Shown here piece by piece: positions 11,599 to 20,804 of a stretch of DNA of 64,000 bases. The stretch is taken from NCBI GenBank assembly GCA_025782575.1, contig JALGYY010000046.1:124001-188000 (forward strand), in the 5' to 3' direction. The position numbers were made by a program, and so were the translations under genes. The DNA comes from a bacterium. Lineage in GTDB: Bacteria > Orphanbacterota > Orphanbacteria > Orphanbacterales > Orphanbacteraceae. The notes under the pieces are model-generated. The model was not told where the DNA came from, made no database searches, and was given only the letters and a program-made list of their open reading frames with translations. Position 1 is the first letter of the stretch. Each line of letters begins with the position of its first letter.

Positions 11599-13317
11599 TC
11601 AAGCGCTCGTGGTTCGCTTCTTCCGCTCTCCAAGCCAGTCTGTCACCTCGTCCCGCCCCATGGTGTTCAGCACAGCTTCTTTGGTGAGCCATCCCTTACG
11701 TGCGATCCGGATTCCCATGTCCAGAGTCTCAAGGCCCCGGCGATCATGGGCGTCCGGCCCGATCGAGATCAGAAGGTGCCGCTCCCGAACGGCGGGGATA
11801 TCACGCCAGTCGACGTCCAGACGCTTCTCGTGAGCGTTCAGTTCGATTACTGTGTCGTTCGTACGGGCGGCGTCCCATACCGCTTCGGAGTCAAATTCAT
11901 ACGGTTCGCGGGCGAGCAGAAGCCGGCCGCTCGAATGGCCCAGAATCGTGGTATGGGGGTTCTGTACTGCCCGAATGAGCCTCGCGGTCTGCGCTTCTCT
12001 CTCCAGTCCGAACCGGGAGTGAATAGAGGCGACGACGAAATCAAGAATCCCGAGCAGCTCGTCTTCATAGTCCAGTTCCCCCTCGGCTAGAATATCCGAC
12101 TCGATTCCATGGAAGATGCGGAAAGGGGCGAGCTTCTCGTTCAGGCGGGCCACTTCTTCCGATTGTGCCCGAAGTCGATCGGGGGAGAGTCCCCCAGCAT
12201 ACCCTGCGCTCCTGCTGTGATCGGCGAGGCCTATGTATTCGAGCCCGAGGGAGATCGCGTGTTCGGCCATCTCCTCGATGGTCGCTTTGCCGTCACTCCA
12301 CGTTGAATGCATATGGAAGAGACCGCGAATGTCCGGAGATTCGAGCAGGCGGGGGAGTCTCCCCTGCTGCGCCGCTTCGATTTCGCCACGCCCTTCCCGA
12401 AGTTCCGGGGGAATCATAGGTAGACCGAGAGCCTGATAGGCTTCCGCCTCGTTAGACGCTTCGAGAGGAGCGTCCCCCCGCGCTGGAGAAAGACCGGACA
12501 GTTCAACGCCGGCCGTCTCCGCGATCGGTTTCAACTGCTCCAGGTGAGCGGCGCTCCCGGTCAAGAGGAGTAACTTCCCGCCGAACCGGGCGGGAGGGAC
12601 AGTGATAATCTCGATCGGGAGTTCGCTCCTCCCGGTATAGCAAAGTGTCTCCGCTGTTTGATCGGTCCCGGTCAGACCGGCGGCCAGGCGGTTCAGCAGG
12701 GGGGCCGGTTCGTCTATTGCGATCACAACGGTCACTCGATCGATCGTCTCCATTCCGCGGGCGATTCCCCCCGCCGGGGCTGCTGCAGGAGCACCGGATT
12801 CGAGCGCCCGCGAGACGATTTCTTCCGCTTCCCGCCTGCCCGCCATGTGGAGCCGGAGGCCTCTGACCCGTTTCCAGAGATCGATCCCGCTTCGTAGATT
12901 TTTCAGCAGCTTGGGCCCGAATCCTTTGATGTCGGCCGCTTGACCCGATTGAATCGCCGCCTCAAGCGCCTCCACCGACTCGACCCCGATTTCATCACGC
13001 AGCTTTCTCACACGCCCGGGACCGAGCCCCGAAAGCCCGGCCAGGTCAATCACGCCCTGCGGGATCTCCCTCCGAAGCTCCTCCAATTGTGGAATCGCCC
13101 CGGTTGCCATGAAGTAACCGATTTTTTCGGCCATCGCCTTCCCGATCCCGGGGATATCAGTCAATTTTCCCTCACGGATAAGTTCGGCGAGATCCCCCGC
13201 TTCGACCAGGCGGTCAGCAGCCTTCCCATAGGCTCTCACCTGGAACAGGGACTCCCCTTTCAGCTCCAGGAGCCTTCCGATCTCACGGAACGCACTGGCG
13301 ATCTCTTCGTTTGCCAT
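11599..13317 (-). CDS. polX: PolX-type protein: HhH repeats, degenerate polymerase palm, intact PHP nuclease domain
   Basis: The architecture is that of bacterial family X DNA polymerase. It has an N-terminal 8-kDa-like region, helix-hairpin-helix motifs (IPGIGKAMAEKI, LSGLGPGRVRKL, KGFGPKLLKNL), a nucleotidyltransferase palm (about 160-300) and a C-terminal PHP domain (about 330-560). I start at MANEEIASAF; an upstream ATG at 13344 adds nine residues. The palm keeps the framework ETI and VPPARFGG, but the usual DxD is R194/T196, the third aspartate is E236 and the GS motif is GG. The PHP metal ligands look complete: HMHSTWSDG, ADHS, GIE, SIHS, GHSSGR, PDAH. It is therefore probably a repair nuclease without polymerase activity. 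It is the only minus-strand gene in the window. Confidence 0.88.
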   Translation of the reverse strand: MANEEIASAFREIGRLLELKGESLFQVRAYGKAADRLVEAGDLAELIREGKLTDIPGIGKAMAEKIGYFMATGAIPQLEELRREIPQGVIDLAGLSGLGPGRVRKLRDEIGVESVEALEAAIQSGQAADIKGFGPKLLKNLRSGIDLWKRVRGLRLHMAGRREAEEIVSRALESGAPAAAPAGGIARGMETIDRVTVVIAIDEPAPLLNRLAAGLTGTDQTAETLCYTGRSELPIEIITVPPARFGGKLLLLTGSAAHLEQLKPIAETAGVELSGLSPARGDAPLEASNEAEAYQALGLPMIPPELREGRGEIEAAQQGRLPRLLESPDIRGLFHMHSTWSDGKATIEEMAEHAISLGLEYIGLADHSRSAGYAGGLSPDRLRAQSEEVARLNEKLAPFRIFHGIESDILAEGELDYEDELLGILDFVVASIHSRFGLEREAQTARLIRAVQNPHTTILGHSSGRLLLAREPYEFDSEAVWDAARTNDTVIELNAHEKRLDVDWRDIPAVRERHLLISIGPDAHDRRGLETLDMGIRIARKGWLTKEAVLNTMGRDEVTDWLGERKKRTTSA

Positions 13318-13460
13318 CTGTTCTCCCGGCCCGGAGGGCCTCAAAAAATCAGGTCTGGCGGACGACGATGAGTATACACTCTTGATGGGCGGAGCCCGAA
13401 ACGAAGCCTACATTCCGGGGTCTGTCGGGATTCGACCCCATTGCCCTGTGGAGAAAAGAG

Positions 13461-14156
13461 ATGAGTGACCCTACAACCCGGGCGGACGATTCTGTGTTGA
13501 TCGAAGTCCATCTCCACACAAAATACTCGATGGACTCCCGGTCAGAGCTCGAAGAGATAGAGGACCGGGCGCTCACGTGCGGTCGCGATTGGCTGGCGGT
13601 GACCGATCATGACACGATTGCAGGTGCGACACGTCTTCGTGATCGCGGACGAATTCCTATTGTGGTGGGTGAGGAGGTTTCGACTTCACTCGGCGACGTG
13701 ATCGGTCTGTTCTTAAAGGAGGAAATCGAACCAGGATATTCTCCTGAGGAGACGATGATGGCGATCAAGGAGCAGGGGGGATTGGTTTACATCCCCCATC
13801 CATTCGATCGTCAGCGCCGGACCAGACTGTTCAAGGAGGCCCTCGATAACCTGATCGGTTTCATTGACATTATTGAGGTGTGGAACGGGAAGACCCGTTA
13901 CGTCGAAGACAATGACAAGGCGGCCGCCTATGCTGCTGATCATGGGGTTGTAGCCTGTGCGGGGAGTGATGCACATCGCGTTCTCGAACTGGGGCGGAGT
14001 GCCATGGAGGTGAATTCGTTCGAAACCGCTTCCGAGTTCCTCGACGCCCTTCGCTGCGGTCGTCAGGTTCTCGAGCAAATGACTCCTCTCAAGACATTCA
14101 GGAAGCGAATGAACGGCATGTTCGGCCGGGGTGACTCGAAACCGGGGACCGGATAG
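13461..14156 (+). CDS. PHP-domain metal-dependent phosphoesterase
   Basis: This is a compact 231-residue PHP (polymerase and histidinol phosphatase) protein. Metal ligands appear in order: HLHTKYSMD (about 18-26), TDHD, GEE, IPHPFD and GSDAH. Relatives include RNase AM-like 5'-3' exonucleases and nucleoside 3',5'-bisphosphate phosphatases. The sequence does not fix the substrate. The start is ATG 13461 behind GAGAAAAGAG. It is transcribed divergently from the PolX-like gene, with 143 bases between the two starts. A short GC-rich inverted repeat follows it (14165-14181). Confidence 0.8.
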   Translation: MSDPTTRADDSVLIEVHLHTKYSMDSRSELEEIEDRALTCGRDWLAVTDHDTIAGATRLRDRGRIPIVVGEEVSTSLGDVIGLFLKEEIEPGYSPEETMMAIKEQGGLVYIPHPFDRQRRTRLFKEALDNLIGFIDIIEVWNGKTRYVEDNDKAAAYAADHGVVACAGSDAHRVLELGRSAMEVNSFETASEFLDALRCGRQVLEQMTPLKTFRKRMNGMFGRGDSKPGTG

Positions 14157-14182: not shown

Positions 14183-14211
14183 TTGACACCTCTTTCCCCG
14201 TTTGCTACATT
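14183..14211 (+). promoter_or_regulatory. Sigma70-type promoter for the outer-membrane protein gene
   Basis: A perfect TTGACA (14183-14188) is followed by exactly 17 bases and TACATT (14206-14211), which matches four of six -10 positions. Transcription would start near 14218. That leaves a leader of about 70 bases before ATG 14288, which has GGGGAGAG as its ribosome-binding site. This is the best sigma70-like promoter in the intergenic regions I read. Confidence 0.65.
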
Positions 14212-14287
14212 CCGCGGGCCGGGATCTGCTCATGTCGGATTTCCGGTATGGATCCGGCCCGTTACCTCCCCGGGGAGAGTCGCCGTC

Positions 14288-15067
14288 ATGTATCTCCGAT
14301 TCCTTGTTATTGCGCTGCTTCTGCTCGCCTCGCCTCGATCTGCCCGGTCCCAATACGCTGACCCGCTCCGCCTGATCGAGATGCCCACTGCGGGAGTTCT
14401 CGCCCACGGTGCCTACAGCATGGATCTCAGGTTGTATTCAGGTGGAGGGGTATTGGCCGGCATCGGCGTCGGTCTTCGGGACGCCATTCAGTTCGGATTT
14501 GCATTTGGAGGAACAGGGGTGCTGGGCGCCGACGATCCGGAATGGAATCCCCGTGCGGAGTTCCAGTTCAGATGGCGGGTTTTGCGGGAGTCCTTCATGG
14601 GGCCGGCTATCGGTCTTGGATTCGACTCCCAGGGGCACGGCTTCTATGATGAAGAAACAGACCGTTATCAGGTAAAATCACGGGGTTTCTACGGCGTGGC
14701 GAGCAAGCATTTTATCTTTCTCGGGGAATTGGGACTGCACGGCGGAATGAACTACAGCCTCGAGAGAGATGATGATGATGAGGATCTCGATCTGTTTCTG
14801 GGAATCGAGAAGTCCATCGGCCCGGACCTGGATTTCATTACCGAGTACGACCTTGCAACGAATGACAATAAGGACGACGGACTCTTCGGGGAAGGCAAGG
14901 GGTATCTGAGCGCCGCGATCCTCTGGAGGGTTTCCCAGAATTTCCAGTTGCAGTTCGATTTCAGGAACCTGCTGGAAAACCATGAAGGGACGGACGACCG
15001 GCCCGAGCTCGCCGGTCTCGGCGACTGGAGCCGTGAAATTCAGATCCGTTACGTGGACTATTTTTAG
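14288..15067 (+). CDS. Exported outer-membrane beta-barrel protein, function unknown
   Basis: The protein has about 259 residues. I chose ATG 14288 because it begins a clean signal peptide (MYLRFLVIALLLLASPRSARSQ) and has GGGGAGAG upstream; the open frame back to 14183 spans the promoter. After the signal come alternating amphipathic strands typical of a small barrel, for example VLAGIGVGLRDAIQFGFAFG and FQLQFDFRNLL. The C-terminus is IQIRYVDYF, with the terminal aromatic residue used by the BAM insertion machinery. No known family is recognised. An acidic patch (ERDDDDEDLDL) may form an extracellular or periplasmic loop. Confidence 0.7.
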   Translation: MYLRFLVIALLLLASPRSARSQYADPLRLIEMPTAGVLAHGAYSMDLRLYSGGGVLAGIGVGLRDAIQFGFAFGGTGVLGADDPEWNPRAEFQFRWRVLRESFMGPAIGLGFDSQGHGFYDEETDRYQVKSRGFYGVASKHFIFLGELGLHGGMNYSLERDDDDEDLDLFLGIEKSIGPDLDFITEYDLATNDNKDDGLFGEGKGYLSAAILWRVSQNFQLQFDFRNLLENHEGTDDRPELAGLGDWSREIQIRYVDYF

Positions 15068-16317: not shown

Positions 16318-16701
16318 ATGACCACGTTCACTCATACGGCGGTGGGAGGTGCGCTCGGTTGCGCCGGCCTCGGGTCGGCCGGATCGTTCGCCGCCGGGTT
16401 TGTTTCCCATTTCCCCCTCGATCTTATTCCCCACTGGGACCTGAAAAGCAAATGGATGGAATCGTGCCTGACATTAGGTGCTCTCGGACTGCTCTTCGCC
16501 CTGTTCGGGCCGACGCCTGTCTTCTGGGGAGCTCTGGGGGGGGCGCTCCCCGACCTGGAACATCTTCTCCCGTTCTCGAGAAAGTTCTATCCCAGCCACG
16601 GCCGGTTACACGGCAAAGCGCTCGGGCCGACTCACGCACTGGTGCAGGCGGGGATCGTTCTTGTCTGTGCGGGGCTCATTTACCGGGTGGGCCTCTCTTG
16701 A
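16318..16701 (+). CDS. Small membrane protein resembling YdjM/DUF457-type metal-dependent hydrolases
   Basis: This is a 127-residue protein with three or four hydrophobic segments. It has polar clusters rich in His, Asp and Glu facing what would be one side of the membrane: FTHTAVGG, SHFPLDLIPHWDLKSKW, GALPDLEHLLPF and YPSHGRLHGK. The combination of such His/Asp motifs with short transmembrane helices recalls the YdjM/DUF457 group of membrane-bound hydrolases, but the protein is shorter than most. The assignment is tentative and no substrate is implied. Its stop overlaps the TTG start of the C25 peptidase gene (TTGA). Confidence 0.6.
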   Translation: MTTFTHTAVGGALGCAGLGSAGSFAAGFVSHFPLDLIPHWDLKSKWMESCLTLGALGLLFALFGPTPVFWGALGGALPDLEHLLPFSRKFYPSHGRLHGKALGPTHALVQAGIVLVCAGLIYRVGLS

Positions 16702-19700
16702 GACGGGCATTTCTCTTTCTTCTTGCCGGCATGATCAGCGCCGGGTTGCTCCCTTTTGAGGTGAACGCCGAAACCCGTCTGGTTCGGGAGGATCGAACCG
16801 GTCTCTCCATCGATTTTGAACTGCCGTCAGTTCGCAGCGAACCAGGTTTTGACGGCTCCGTGATTCTGAGTGCCCCCGGGGCTCCGACGATCGGCCGTTC
16901 CGGCTTCCCGTCAGTGCCTGCAGAAAGCTATCTCATCGCCATCCCCCCGGGTGCCGTCGTCTCGGTTTCGTTCAGCAATCTGCGAGTCGAGGAGACAGAT
17001 CGCTACCCGGTGGCGCCGTATCCATGGTCCGATGACGAAGGGTTCATACCGGCGGAATGGGATCCTTCCCTGTCAGGAGGGCTCTGGCCCGTTTCATGGT
17101 TTGAATTATCCTCACCTAAGAGAATGCGCGATCAAGCCGTGGTCAATCTGACGATCTATCCGGTCCGCCATGATCATTCGACCGGCCGGACGGACATTTT
17201 GCGTTCCGCACGAATCGATGTTCATTTCGCCGGTGGTAAGGATCAGGCGATCCGCCCGCCCGCCTCCCGTTCGCCTGCGTTCGAGACTCTCTACGATCGA
17301 GTCCTGCTGAATGCCGGATCGAGCAGGTCGTGGCGGACTCTTCCGGCCCCTTCGAAGACCGCCCGATCGGGCGATTCATTTCATTCGAGCGACCAATGGA
17401 TGCGGGTCGGGATCGACACGACCGGATTTTATTCCATCGATTACGCGCAGTTCGTGGCGGCAGGAATCACGGATCCCCGTACAGCAATCGGTGACCCGCG
17501 GACGATTCGCGTCTACACGGGAACCGGGCGGGAACTTCCCGAAGCGATCGACGGAGAACGGGACACATGGATGAAACAGACGGCGGTTCTTGTTCGAGGA
17601 GAGAATGACGGTTCGTTCGATCCGGGTGACAGGATCGAGTTCTTTGCGCTCGGGCCCATCGCCTGGGAGGGGGAATACGCCACCGGAGCGGACCCTTACT
17701 ACAATCATATTGAGCATACCTATTCGATTGAGAACGTGTATTGGATCACGTGGAACGGCTCGTTCGAAGAGCCGCAGGCCCCGAGAATGGGAGAATTCGA
17801 CGGGGGGGCAGAAAGCCCCGGCGCGACGAATTCGACGGTCCTGGAGACGTTTCCGGAGTGGCGCCATTTCGAGAAGGACATTTTTGAGGATCTCACACGA
17901 TACGGGACGGACGGCTGGTTCTGGGATCGCTATACCCAGAACGCCACGGACAAATCGTTCCGTAATCTGGCCACCCCCTCTGTCGATTCGACGCAGCCTC
18001 AGAAGCTTCGTGCCTCCTTCATGCACTATGACGAAGGCCGGAATACGGGCGGTACTCAGCGTGCCATTTTCTGGGTAAACGGTGTTCCGGCGGATACACT
18101 CCGATGGAACAGCGCTGATCGGGGGAGCGGAAGCATCCTGTCCGGTGTCCACTCTGCAGAGGGGAACTGGGGGCTTTCTAACAGTACTGTCGTGCGTATC
18201 CTTGTCGATCAGCGCCCGCTTGTGTACCTGGATTGGATTGAGATCGGATACGAACGGCGGTTCACGGTGTCTAATGGCCCGATTCGATTCCGCCTGGAGA
18301 CACCGGGCGATTTCAGCATCCCTATTTCGGGTCTGGGGGGCGAATCGATCCGTCTGTTCGATGTGAGCGAACCGTTCGTTGTAGGAGAGCTGGTCGGTTT
18401 CGAGCAGGACGGAGCGACCGCGGAAGTTTTCATCCGGGTGAGCGAGGCGTCCACCTATCGAACGGTAAGCGAGTCCGAATGGAAGACGCCCGCCAGTTTC
18501 GAGCGAAAAAGCATGCCGGATCTCCGCGAGCCGTCAGAAGGAGCGGAGTATCTCGTGATCGTTTACGACGAATGGGAAGATGAGATTGCTCCGTTGGTCG
18601 AACATCGATCCGGCAAGTATCTAACGAAAACCGTACTCCTCAGCGACGTGTTCGATCAGTTTTCCTGGGGACTCGAGGATGCCATGGCGATTCGTGATTT
18701 CATCGCCCACGCTTATCATAACTGGCCCACACGACCGATATTCGTGCTTCTTGCCGGGGATGCCTCTGCCGATTTCAAGGGGCGCCTCCGATCGGAGATT
18801 TCGAATGACCTTCACACGTTCTTCCGGATCAGCCGCACAGGCGTGGAGGAACTCACCTATCCGACAGACGATCTCTTCACTTATGTAGACCCCCTCGATG
18901 ATCCTGACGATCAGATTCCCGATCTTGCCATTGGCCGATTGCCGGCGAATTCTATCCGCGAGATGGAAATCATGGTCGACAAGCTGGTTCGATATGACCA
19001 GGATCCCGAATTCGGATTGTGGAAGAACAGGATCCTCTTGCTGGCTGATGATGAATTGAAGCCGACCGGAGGCGTGCTTGCCGGAGATTGCGCGTTCCGC
19101 TGGGTTCATACGGTCGACACGGAGACAGCGTCGAAGCTGATTCCCGTTTGCTTTGATATTCAGAAGGTCTATCTGATGGAGTTTCCATTGTCGGCGAACC
19201 TGGAAAAACCGCTCGCACGCGACGCTTATATTGACTGGATCAACGAAGGCTACTTGCTCTCATCCTATATCGGACATGGCGGTTTTCAAAAGATGGCTGA
19301 CGAGAATCTCTTCAATGCCTCACTCGCGACGACTGAGAATATCAGGAACGGTCGGCGGCTCCCTCTCTTTACCGCCTGGTCCTGCTCGATCGGGAGTTTC
19401 GATGTGCCTGACGATAACTCCCTGTCTGAAATTTTTCTTAAGCTGGATACCGGCGGGGCCATCGGCTCCTTCTCCTCGGGGGCGCCTGCATTCGGAAACC
19501 CGAGCGCCCAATTGAATCAGCTCTTTTTCGACCACCTGTTTCCCGCCTGTGGAGTCCGCGTACCGATCGGCCTCGCTGCGATTGCCGCCAAGTCGATATT
19601 CACGAGCGCGACAATCCGTAAATCAAACGACGAGAAGTACAACCTGCTGGGCGATCCCGCGCTCGAGCTGGCGTTCCCCACTTACGGCGTGGAGTTCGAC

Positions 19701-20804
19701 GATCTGGAATCGCTCCGGTTTCAGCGGGGAGCTGAAACAAGCATCCGGGGGACCGTCCTTGATGAAACAGGCGCACCCGCACCGGGATTCAACGGAGATT
19801 GCCTGTTTACGGTACAAGGCATGGCCGACACTTCGGGATATGCATACGATGACAGCCTCTGTCTCGGAACCCCTGAGCGGCCCCGCCCCGAACGGGCGCC
19901 TTACAAGCTTGGCGGGCCTGTCTTCTTCAGGGGGACGGCCGATGTAGTTGCGGGCCGGTTCGAAGTGCCGTTTTTTGTTCCTCTTGATACCCGGATCGGC
20001 GATCTCGGTCAGATCAGGGCATACGTTTTCTCCTCTTCTGCCGCGATAGACGGTGCCGGTGGCTACGATTCGATCGCTGTCGTCCCGGAACCGCCGAACA
20101 GTGAATTCGAGGACCAGGCCGGACCGGATGTGAAAGTAACTGTAGACGGTGCCGAGATACGAGACGGTACATCGTTTACTTCTGAATCGATCTGGCGAAT
20201 CGACCTGGAAGATGAAAGTGGAATCAATTTGCAGGAATCTGACGATTTCTTCAGCATTCATCTCGTATTTGACGGAGGCCGGCCCATCGACCTGACCTCT
20301 CTGTTCGAGTATGACAAGGGAAGCTATCAGAAGGGATCGATCTCATTTCAATTTGTCGATCTTCCCGATGTGTCTATTCGGGAGGGGGGGCATGAGTTCG
20401 CGTTCCGAGCGTCCGATAATCTGAATAACCGGGTCGAAGTCGATCACCAGGTTGTTCTTGTGGCCGAGGGTTCGGAGCTCGAGTTCAATGATATCGTACT
20501 CAGCTACCCCAATCCTTTCGACCCGCGGGAAGAGGAAACGACTTTTTATGTCGACCTTTCGCAAAGCGCCGACATTTCGATCGAGATCTTCACGATTACC
20601 GGAAGGAGAATCAGGCGATTTGAGCGTTGTGCCGCCTTCCCCGGCCAGACGGCACTGGTAGAATGTGTCTGGGATGGTCGGGATCAGGACGGCGATCCGG
20701 TCGCCAACGGGACTTACTTGATCCGTGCCATAGCCGAATCACCGACAGGCGCCCCTCGCGTCGAGACAATCGGAAAGGCCGTGGTACTTCACGGAACGGA
20801 TTGA
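16698..20804 (+). CDS. porU: Exported C25 (gingipain-type) cysteine peptidase, PorU-like, with C-terminal FlgD-like Ig domain
   Basis: The open frame runs from 16359, but I place the start at TTG 16698. It overlaps the upstream stop and begins a proper signal peptide (LRRAFLFLLAGMISAGLLPF). That gives 1368 residues. The catalytic dyad of clan CD peptidases is visible: H860 in SYIGHGGFQ and C896 in FTAWSCSIGSFD. The last 100 residues form an Ig-like domain of the FlgD/sorting type (YPNPFDP, then ISIEIFTITGRRIRRF, GVYLI-like end). In Bacteroidota, PorU is the C25 sortase that removes type IX signals and works with PorV. Here porV is the next gene, which supports the PorU assignment over a simple secreted gingipain. 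Length is within the PorU range. Confidence 0.75.
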   Translation: MRRAFLFLLAGMISAGLLPFEVNAETRLVREDRTGLSIDFELPSVRSEPGFDGSVILSAPGAPTIGRSGFPSVPAESYLIAIPPGAVVSVSFSNLRVEETDRYPVAPYPWSDDEGFIPAEWDPSLSGGLWPVSWFELSSPKRMRDQAVVNLTIYPVRHDHSTGRTDILRSARIDVHFAGGKDQAIRPPASRSPAFETLYDRVLLNAGSSRSWRTLPAPSKTARSGDSFHSSDQWMRVGIDTTGFYSIDYAQFVAAGITDPRTAIGDPRTIRVYTGTGRELPEAIDGERDTWMKQTAVLVRGENDGSFDPGDRIEFFALGPIAWEGEYATGADPYYNHIEHTYSIENVYWITWNGSFEEPQAPRMGEFDGGAESPGATNSTVLETFPEWRHFEKDIFEDLTRYGTDGWFWDRYTQNATDKSFRNLATPSVDSTQPQKLRASFMHYDEGRNTGGTQRAIFWVNGVPADTLRWNSADRGSGSILSGVHSAEGNWGLSNSTVVRILVDQRPLVYLDWIEIGYERRFTVSNGPIRFRLETPGDFSIPISGLGGESIRLFDVSEPFVVGELVGFEQDGATAEVFIRVSEASTYRTVSESEWKTPASFERKSMPDLREPSEGAEYLVIVYDEWEDEIAPLVEHRSGKYLTKTVLLSDVFDQFSWGLEDAMAIRDFIAHAYHNWPTRPIFVLLAGDASADFKGRLRSEISNDLHTFFRISRTGVEELTYPTDDLFTYVDPLDDPDDQIPDLAIGRLPANSIREMEIMVDKLVRYDQDPEFGLWKNRILLLADDELKPTGGVLAGDCAFRWVHTVDTETASKLIPVCFDIQKVYLMEFPLSANLEKPLARDAYIDWINEGYLLSSYIGHGGFQKMADENLFNASLATTENIRNGRRLPLFTAWSCSIGSFDVPDDNSLSEIFLKLDTGGAIGSFSSGAPAFGNPSAQLNQLFFDHLFPACGVRVPIGLAAIAAKSIFTSATIRKSNDEKYNLLGDPALELAFPTYGVEFDDLESLRFQRGAETSIRGTVLDETGAPAPGFNGDCLFTVQGMADTSGYAYDDSLCLGTPERPRPERAPYKLGGPVFFRGTADVVAGRFEVPFFVPLDTRIGDLGQIRAYVFSSSAAIDGAGGYDSIAVVPEPPNSEFEDQAGPDVKVTVDGAEIRDGTSFTSESIWRIDLEDESGINLQESDDFFSIHLVFDGGRPIDLTSLFEYDKGSYQKGSISFQFVDLPDVSIREGGHEFAFRASDNLNNRVEVDHQVVLVAEGSELEFNDIVLSYPNPFDPREEETTFYVDLSQSADISIEIFTITGRRIRRFERCAAFPGQTALVECVWDGRDQDGDPVANGTYLIRAIAESPTGAPRVETIGKAVVLHGTD

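Follow-up and report, generated by a model that had tools for sequence, protein, structure and literature searches.

The polX gene of the window, by which is meant the whole stretch of 64,000 nucleotides that was analysed, codes for a protein which, judged by its sequence features, is a member of the noncanonical PolX class already published by Prostova et al. in 2022 (PMC9226535). This class is defined by an altered catalytic triad and dNTP site combined with an intact PHP domain, and it makes up 27.5% of prokaryotic PolX sequences (PMC9226535). The preferred reading, with a probability of about 0.86, is that the window protein is a noncanonical PolX in which the helix-hairpin-helix (HhH) parts hold DNA, the PHP domain trims 3′ ends and the palm is no more than a spacer or scaffold. 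New with respect to the 2022 class are the palm-only genes of a sister genus, in which loss of the cutting part is combined with a dead palm.

Identity of the protein and its polymerase site

The reading frame starts with an ATG at position 13317, and an in-frame TTG is found 27 nt upstream. In a search of solved structures, the protein matched T. thermophilus PolX (3b0x) over residues 1-566 with an E-value of 6e-104 and D. radiodurans PolX (2w9m) over nearly its whole length with an E-value of 2e-97. The Pfam families HHH_8, HHH_5, DNA_pol_B_thumb and PHP scored above their cut-offs (Table 1), and this is the sole polymerase-beta-thumb protein found in its own genome.

Table 1. Features of the polX locus and of related loci in the sister genus g3 (window positions unless a locus is named)
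Feature	Residues	Position	Strand	Basis or genome
polX, 572 aa, predicted polymerase-dead noncanonical PolX		11599..13317	-	ORF, structure-database match, Pfam, alignment
8-kDa domain and thumb with helix-hairpin-helix motifs, predicted DNA binding	1-150	12868..13317	-	PF14716 HHH_8 E 5.6e-16, PF14520 HHH_5
Degenerate palm	153-246	12580..12861	-	Alignment, model, lowest family identity of all domains
Palm metal position 1	R194	12736-12738	-	Alignment
Palm metal position 2	T196	12730-12732	-	Alignment
Palm metal position 3	E236	12610-12612	-	Alignment
Fingers (Pfam "DNA_pol_B_thumb"), dNTP-contact residues lost (LLTGSAAHL)	247-308	12394..12579	-	PF14791 E 1.7e-10
PHP domain, predicted nuclease, nine metal ligands all present	330-560	11638..12330	-	PF02811, alignment
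TGTATACT, -10-like element upstream of polX		13371..13378	-	Read directly from the sequence
Divergent stand-alone PHP protein, 231 aa, PHP and PHP_C		13461..14156	+	Pfam, synteny
Free-standing dead palm-fingers PolX remnant, 167 aa		L034 1498-2001	-	G002, orthologous locus
Free-standing dead palm-fingers PolX remnant, 174 aa		L035 676-1200	-	G005, orthologous locus
Ku beside three-domain LigD (Prim-Pol, 3′-phosphoesterase, ligase)		L104 9308-12567	-	G002

The polymerase site was read from an alignment of 73 PolX proteins, with the metal positions D198, D200 and D243 of the Thermus enzyme (counted along the PDB chain) as reference. These columns hold R194, T196 and E236 in the window protein. 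A canonical triad needs three acidic residues, and with non-acidic residues at the first two positions the window triad is altered and not canonical; the third change, from aspartate to glutamate, is conservative and leaves the position acidic, whereas the first two are not conservative. The first-pass annotation had stated that both metal-binding aspartates were replaced by R194 and T196 and the third by E236, and its residue numbers proved exact, although the last of these is a mild substitution.

The dNTP site is degraded as well. The palm GS motif is GG, as the same annotation had read it, with GSARR changed to GGIAR; the fingers motif YLTGSKAHS has become LLTGSAAHL, in which the GS is retained. 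Residues Y258, K263 and S266, which contact the incoming nucleotide in the Thermus enzyme, correspond to L, A and L. A hydrophobic residue occupies the position of Pol beta N279, as it does in almost all altered PolX proteins (PMC9226535). Compared with the Thermus enzyme, the palm is about 3 residues shorter from its GS motif to the third metal position and the fingers are equal in length, so that neither subdomain shows a large deletion; such deletions are frequent in noncanonical PolX and are not required (PMC9226535).

Modelling of the palm, which had been proposed along with the earlier claims, placed the strands where the alignment predicts them. In an AlphaFold2 model from five rows (mean pLDDT 82, pTM 0.71), T196 lies in strand 195-200 with R194 just before it, E236 lies in strand 235-240, and loop 217-229 is poorly modelled. 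The best whole-length match of the model was the Thermus ternary complex 3au6 (TM 0.84, rmsd 4.2 Å). The match to the Deinococcus structure as a whole was lower (TM 0.65), possibly because its domains are arranged differently.

The nuclease part and the proposed mechanism

In the same 73-protein alignment, the PHP ligands H335, H337, H367, E406, H433, H461, E492, D522 and H524 match the HHHEHHEDH consensus in full. Together with the Pfam matches to HHH_8 and HHH_5, these residues uphold the earlier statement that the HhH repeats and all PHP ligand motifs are kept. Six residues of B. subtilis PolX guide DNA to the PHP site, namely F440, R469, R474, N498, R503 and K545 (PMC6616362). They correspond approximately to F436, R465, R470, N494, R499 and K541 of the window protein, a correspondence drawn from motifs and a constant numbering offset of four, not from a sequence alignment. 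A survey from 2026 found the PHP site of PolX better conserved than the polymerase site (PMC12926913).

With these residues in place, the PHP domain of the window protein is predicted to be active. In the proposed mechanism, the HhH parts would grip DNA that is damaged or contains gaps. Removal or trimming of 3′ ends would fall to the C-terminal PHP domain as a Mn2+-dependent 3′-5′ exonuclease, which probably acts also as an AP endonuclease and in 3′-end cleaning. The palm would be unable to coordinate the two catalytic metals. The PolX proteins of D. radiodurans (triad AEE) and D. gobiensis (ARE) showed no polymerisation and were strong Mn2+-dependent 3′-5′ exonucleases (PMC9226535), and by analogy with them the window protein itself is expected to have exonuclease without polymerase activity.

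Relatives in the phylum and origin of the polymerase loss

The phylum was represented by seven genomes, all of one family, which include the window genome (G000) and one known at NCBI as Candidatus Eisenbacteria Dive96_bin2.117. Full-length PolX was found in four of them, with the triads RTE (window), ADR, DSR and VRE and with the full PHP consensus in each; the family members are 50-56% identical to the window protein. Since the triad is altered across the whole family, chance or sequencing error is excluded as the source of the window palm. In one further genome, G006, polX is split over two contigs (C48:4-504 and C197:4-918) exactly in the palm, and the palm sequence is absent from the assembly.

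The domains of these proteins have not diverged at the same pace. Mean identity within the family is lowest in the palm (0.35), followed by the fingers (0.42), the HhH part (0.59) and the PHP domain (0.61), while palm identity in three canonical clades of similar depth is 0.43-0.54. In genus g5, comparison of the species G004 and G006 gave a dN/dS of 0.11 over the HhH part and 0.09 over the PHP domain; over the fingers, for which 56 codons were available, it was 0.34. These values indicate strong purifying selection at both ends of the protein and relaxed constraint in the middle.

A PolX tree was built after removal of the palm and fingers columns from the 73 sequences, which are the best matches to the query and not an unbiased census. 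In this tree, the four proteins of the family group together on a single starred branch, as a clade of their own. Altered triads occur in 15 of the 73 sequences, scattered over the tree, and the starred branches force at least five changes. The quick tree separates the family from D. radiodurans, but a tree joining both scored better and was not rejected (p-AU 0.688). The data neither support nor reject a union of the family clade with D. radiodurans, and a polymerase loss independent of Deinococcus could not be shown.

Palm-only genes of a sister genus

The sister genus g3 comprises G002 (95% complete, 10 contigs) and G005 (82% complete, 830 contigs), both of which gave weak partial PolX matches only. 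At the orthologous place, which is flanked by the stand-alone PHP gene, with accA further on (and in G002 also a C25-type peptidase homologue), each genome has a short open reading frame. Its product comprises only the palm with the helix that precedes it, followed by the fingers, and stops at the PHP linker, so that both cuts fall on domain borders. The immediate flanks of about 80-130 bp on either side are too small for the lost domains, and HHH_8 gave nothing over its cut-off in the g3 genomes. The triad columns read VTA and GSS, and the polymerase site is not conserved. As the borders are common to both species, the truncation is most likely older than their split.

The palm-only gene is under purifying selection. 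Its dN/dS between G002 and G005 is 0.24 (bootstrap 0.15-0.34), a rough estimate from one species pair with synonymous divergence above 1, and its indels are in-frame only. The fingers half has a lower dN/dS (0.18) and a higher identity (73% versus 50%). The gene as a whole is 61% identical between the two species, compared with 87% for the neighbouring PHP gene, and so evolves faster than its neighbour. Among the 193 genomes sampled, no other free-standing palm-only PolX was seen.

Neighbourhood of polX

The TGTATACT element is found upstream of the gene in the window genome and also upstream of the palm-only genes in G002 and G005. In each of the seven family genomes, polX or what remains of it is adjoined by a stand-alone PHP gene with the usual PHP motifs, and no homologue of this gene was found beside the other PolX loci compared. 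By its constant position, its product is a candidate partner of the palm module.

Further along the window, a protein without a Pfam match (14183-15067, + strand) is conserved across the family at about 57-64% identity, and its gene invariably lies between the stand-alone PHP gene and accA. A large C25-type, gingipain-like peptidase with a FlgD-like Ig domain near its C-terminus (16359-20804, + strand) lies beside accA across the family.

Relation to NHEJ

NHEJ is encoded in 46.5% of the genomes with altered PolX, which is a statistical association only (PMC9226535). Neither Ku nor LigD_N, the 3′-phosphoesterase domain of LigD, was found in the window genome or in the four other genomes with PolX of the full-length type. 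As the window genome is about 95% complete, this absence is not absolute; the four other genomes lack both genes too. The published link therefore does not hold in the window genome, where an NHEJ partner for PolX was rejected with neither Ku nor LigD_N found. A role in base excision or in break-end clean-up outside NHEJ is likelier for the window protein than one in NHEJ. More generally, the occurrence of noncanonical PolX without NHEJ in the full-length genomes of this phylum argues against NHEJ as the general purpose of the class.

Two of the seven genomes, those of genus g3, are the only ones that encode Ku and a LigD with the 3′-phosphoesterase domain. The simplest account is that a complete NHEJ system with its own 3′-end nuclease made the PolX nuclease dispensable in g3 and that the dead palm-fingers module was kept for some non-catalytic use. 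The truncation is a single evolutionary event, and its coincidence with Ku-LigD is therefore suggestive and no more.

Alternative explanations

Weak polymerisation by the window protein would require E236 to act with D193, E190 or another acid close by. E236 is acidic, and polymerase activity was once claimed for D. radiodurans PolX with its AEE triad; this claim was not reproduced (as cited in PMC9226535), and the window protein has lost its dNTP site too. Acids that might stand in at the metal positions were looked for in the alignment and in the model. D193 is not kept in the relatives, each of which has a different and not fully acidic set, and no acidic residue near the site is common to the full-length proteins, so that a residual metal site made of neighbouring acids was rejected and polymerisation by this route is very unlikely. 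A decaying pseudogene or an assembly artefact is more improbable still: the palm evolves fast, but the full-length frame is intact, the same pattern recurs in several independent assemblies and dN/dS of the HhH and PHP parts is low, and this explanation of the window gene was rejected as well. It is unlikely, although less remote than either of these, that the PHP domain works less as a nuclease than as a phosphatase or phosphodiesterase, with 3′ ends or something else as its substrate. Both 3′-phosphatase and 3′-phosphodiesterase activities have been reported for PolX PHP sites (PMC6616362), but the DNA-path residues of the nuclease and the DNA-binding HhH parts are kept and constrained. With these alternatives weighed, the earlier claim that the protein would bind DNA and cut it without polymerising is well supported by the dead triad, the degraded dNTP site, the PHP ligands, the selection on the HhH and PHP parts and the biochemistry of the Deinococcus proteins (PMC9226535).

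A different kind of explanation, compatible with the preferred one, is that the dead palm-fingers part has a non-catalytic job of its own, such as docking of protein or DNA, possibly with the stand-alone PHP protein, and has outlived the nuclease. Purifying selection on the dead palm and fingers retained in g3 suggests that the palm region has a use of its own other than catalysis. The clean cut at both domain borders, the in-frame indels, the better conserved fingers half and the retention of the divergent PHP gene beside the remnant all point this way. On the other side, the selection estimate is rough, the remnant evolves faster than its PHP neighbour and a second lineage with such a gene was not seen among the genomes sampled; taken together, the odds of such a job fall just short of even. 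Somewhat more tentative is the fuller proposal that palm and fingers are now a functional unit and that in g3, where Ku occurs together with a three-domain LigD, the HhH and PHP parts were discarded and the dead palm lived on as a free-standing protein of 167-174 residues under purifying selection. If it is true, g3 offers a natural experiment in which a nuclease role passes from PolX to NHEJ, and the g3 proteins mirror the known PHP-only PolX-like proteins.

These results bear on the suggestion of the first-pass annotation that a branch of PolX has been turned into a nuclease dedicated to repair. The suggestion suits the four full-length proteins but not the whole branch, as both the HhH and the PHP part are gone in g3. 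With the window protein, a small and poorly sampled phylum joins the lineages that keep the PolX nuclease and lose the polymerase. Genus g3, with its nuclease lost, its dead palm kept and Ku-LigD present, bears on the question raised in 2022 of what purpose the polymerase domains serve in a PolX that does not polymerise, a question that can be tested directly on a protein of 170 residues.

Comparison with known PolX proteins

Compared to the canonical PolX proteins of T. thermophilus (3au2, 3au6) and B. subtilis, the window protein shares homology over the whole length, the fold, the PHP ligands and the DNA-path residues, but it is without catalytic aspartates in the first two positions. Canonical-looking palms were also seen in two PolX-PHP proteins on IMG/VR contigs of 113 and 416 kb (L109 501-2150, GDIDF; L110 501-2147, GDVDF), which are possibly virus-encoded.

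The noncanonical PolX of D. radiodurans (2w9m) resembles the window protein in its altered triad, degraded dNTP site, HHHEHHEDH consensus, length and domain order. In Deinococci, too, altered PolX often has a stand-alone PHP gene nearby (PMC9226535), as in the window. The Deinococcus proteins differ in their triads (AEE or ARE, versus RTE in the window) and in a palm or fingers deletion of a size that has no counterpart in the window protein. Unlike the association described for the noncanonical class, NHEJ genes were not found in the window genome.

The palm-only genes of g3 have their nearest parallels in the domain-reduced PolX relatives named PolX-like and PolX2 (PMC12926913). PolX-like proteins have kept the PHP domain and lost the polymerase, the opposite of g3. 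PolX2 proteins have lost the PHP and N-terminal domains, kept the polymerase site and carry a helical C-terminal domain. The g3 genes, with neither PHP nor HhH and with a dead site, represent a combination that occurs in neither PolX-like nor PolX2.
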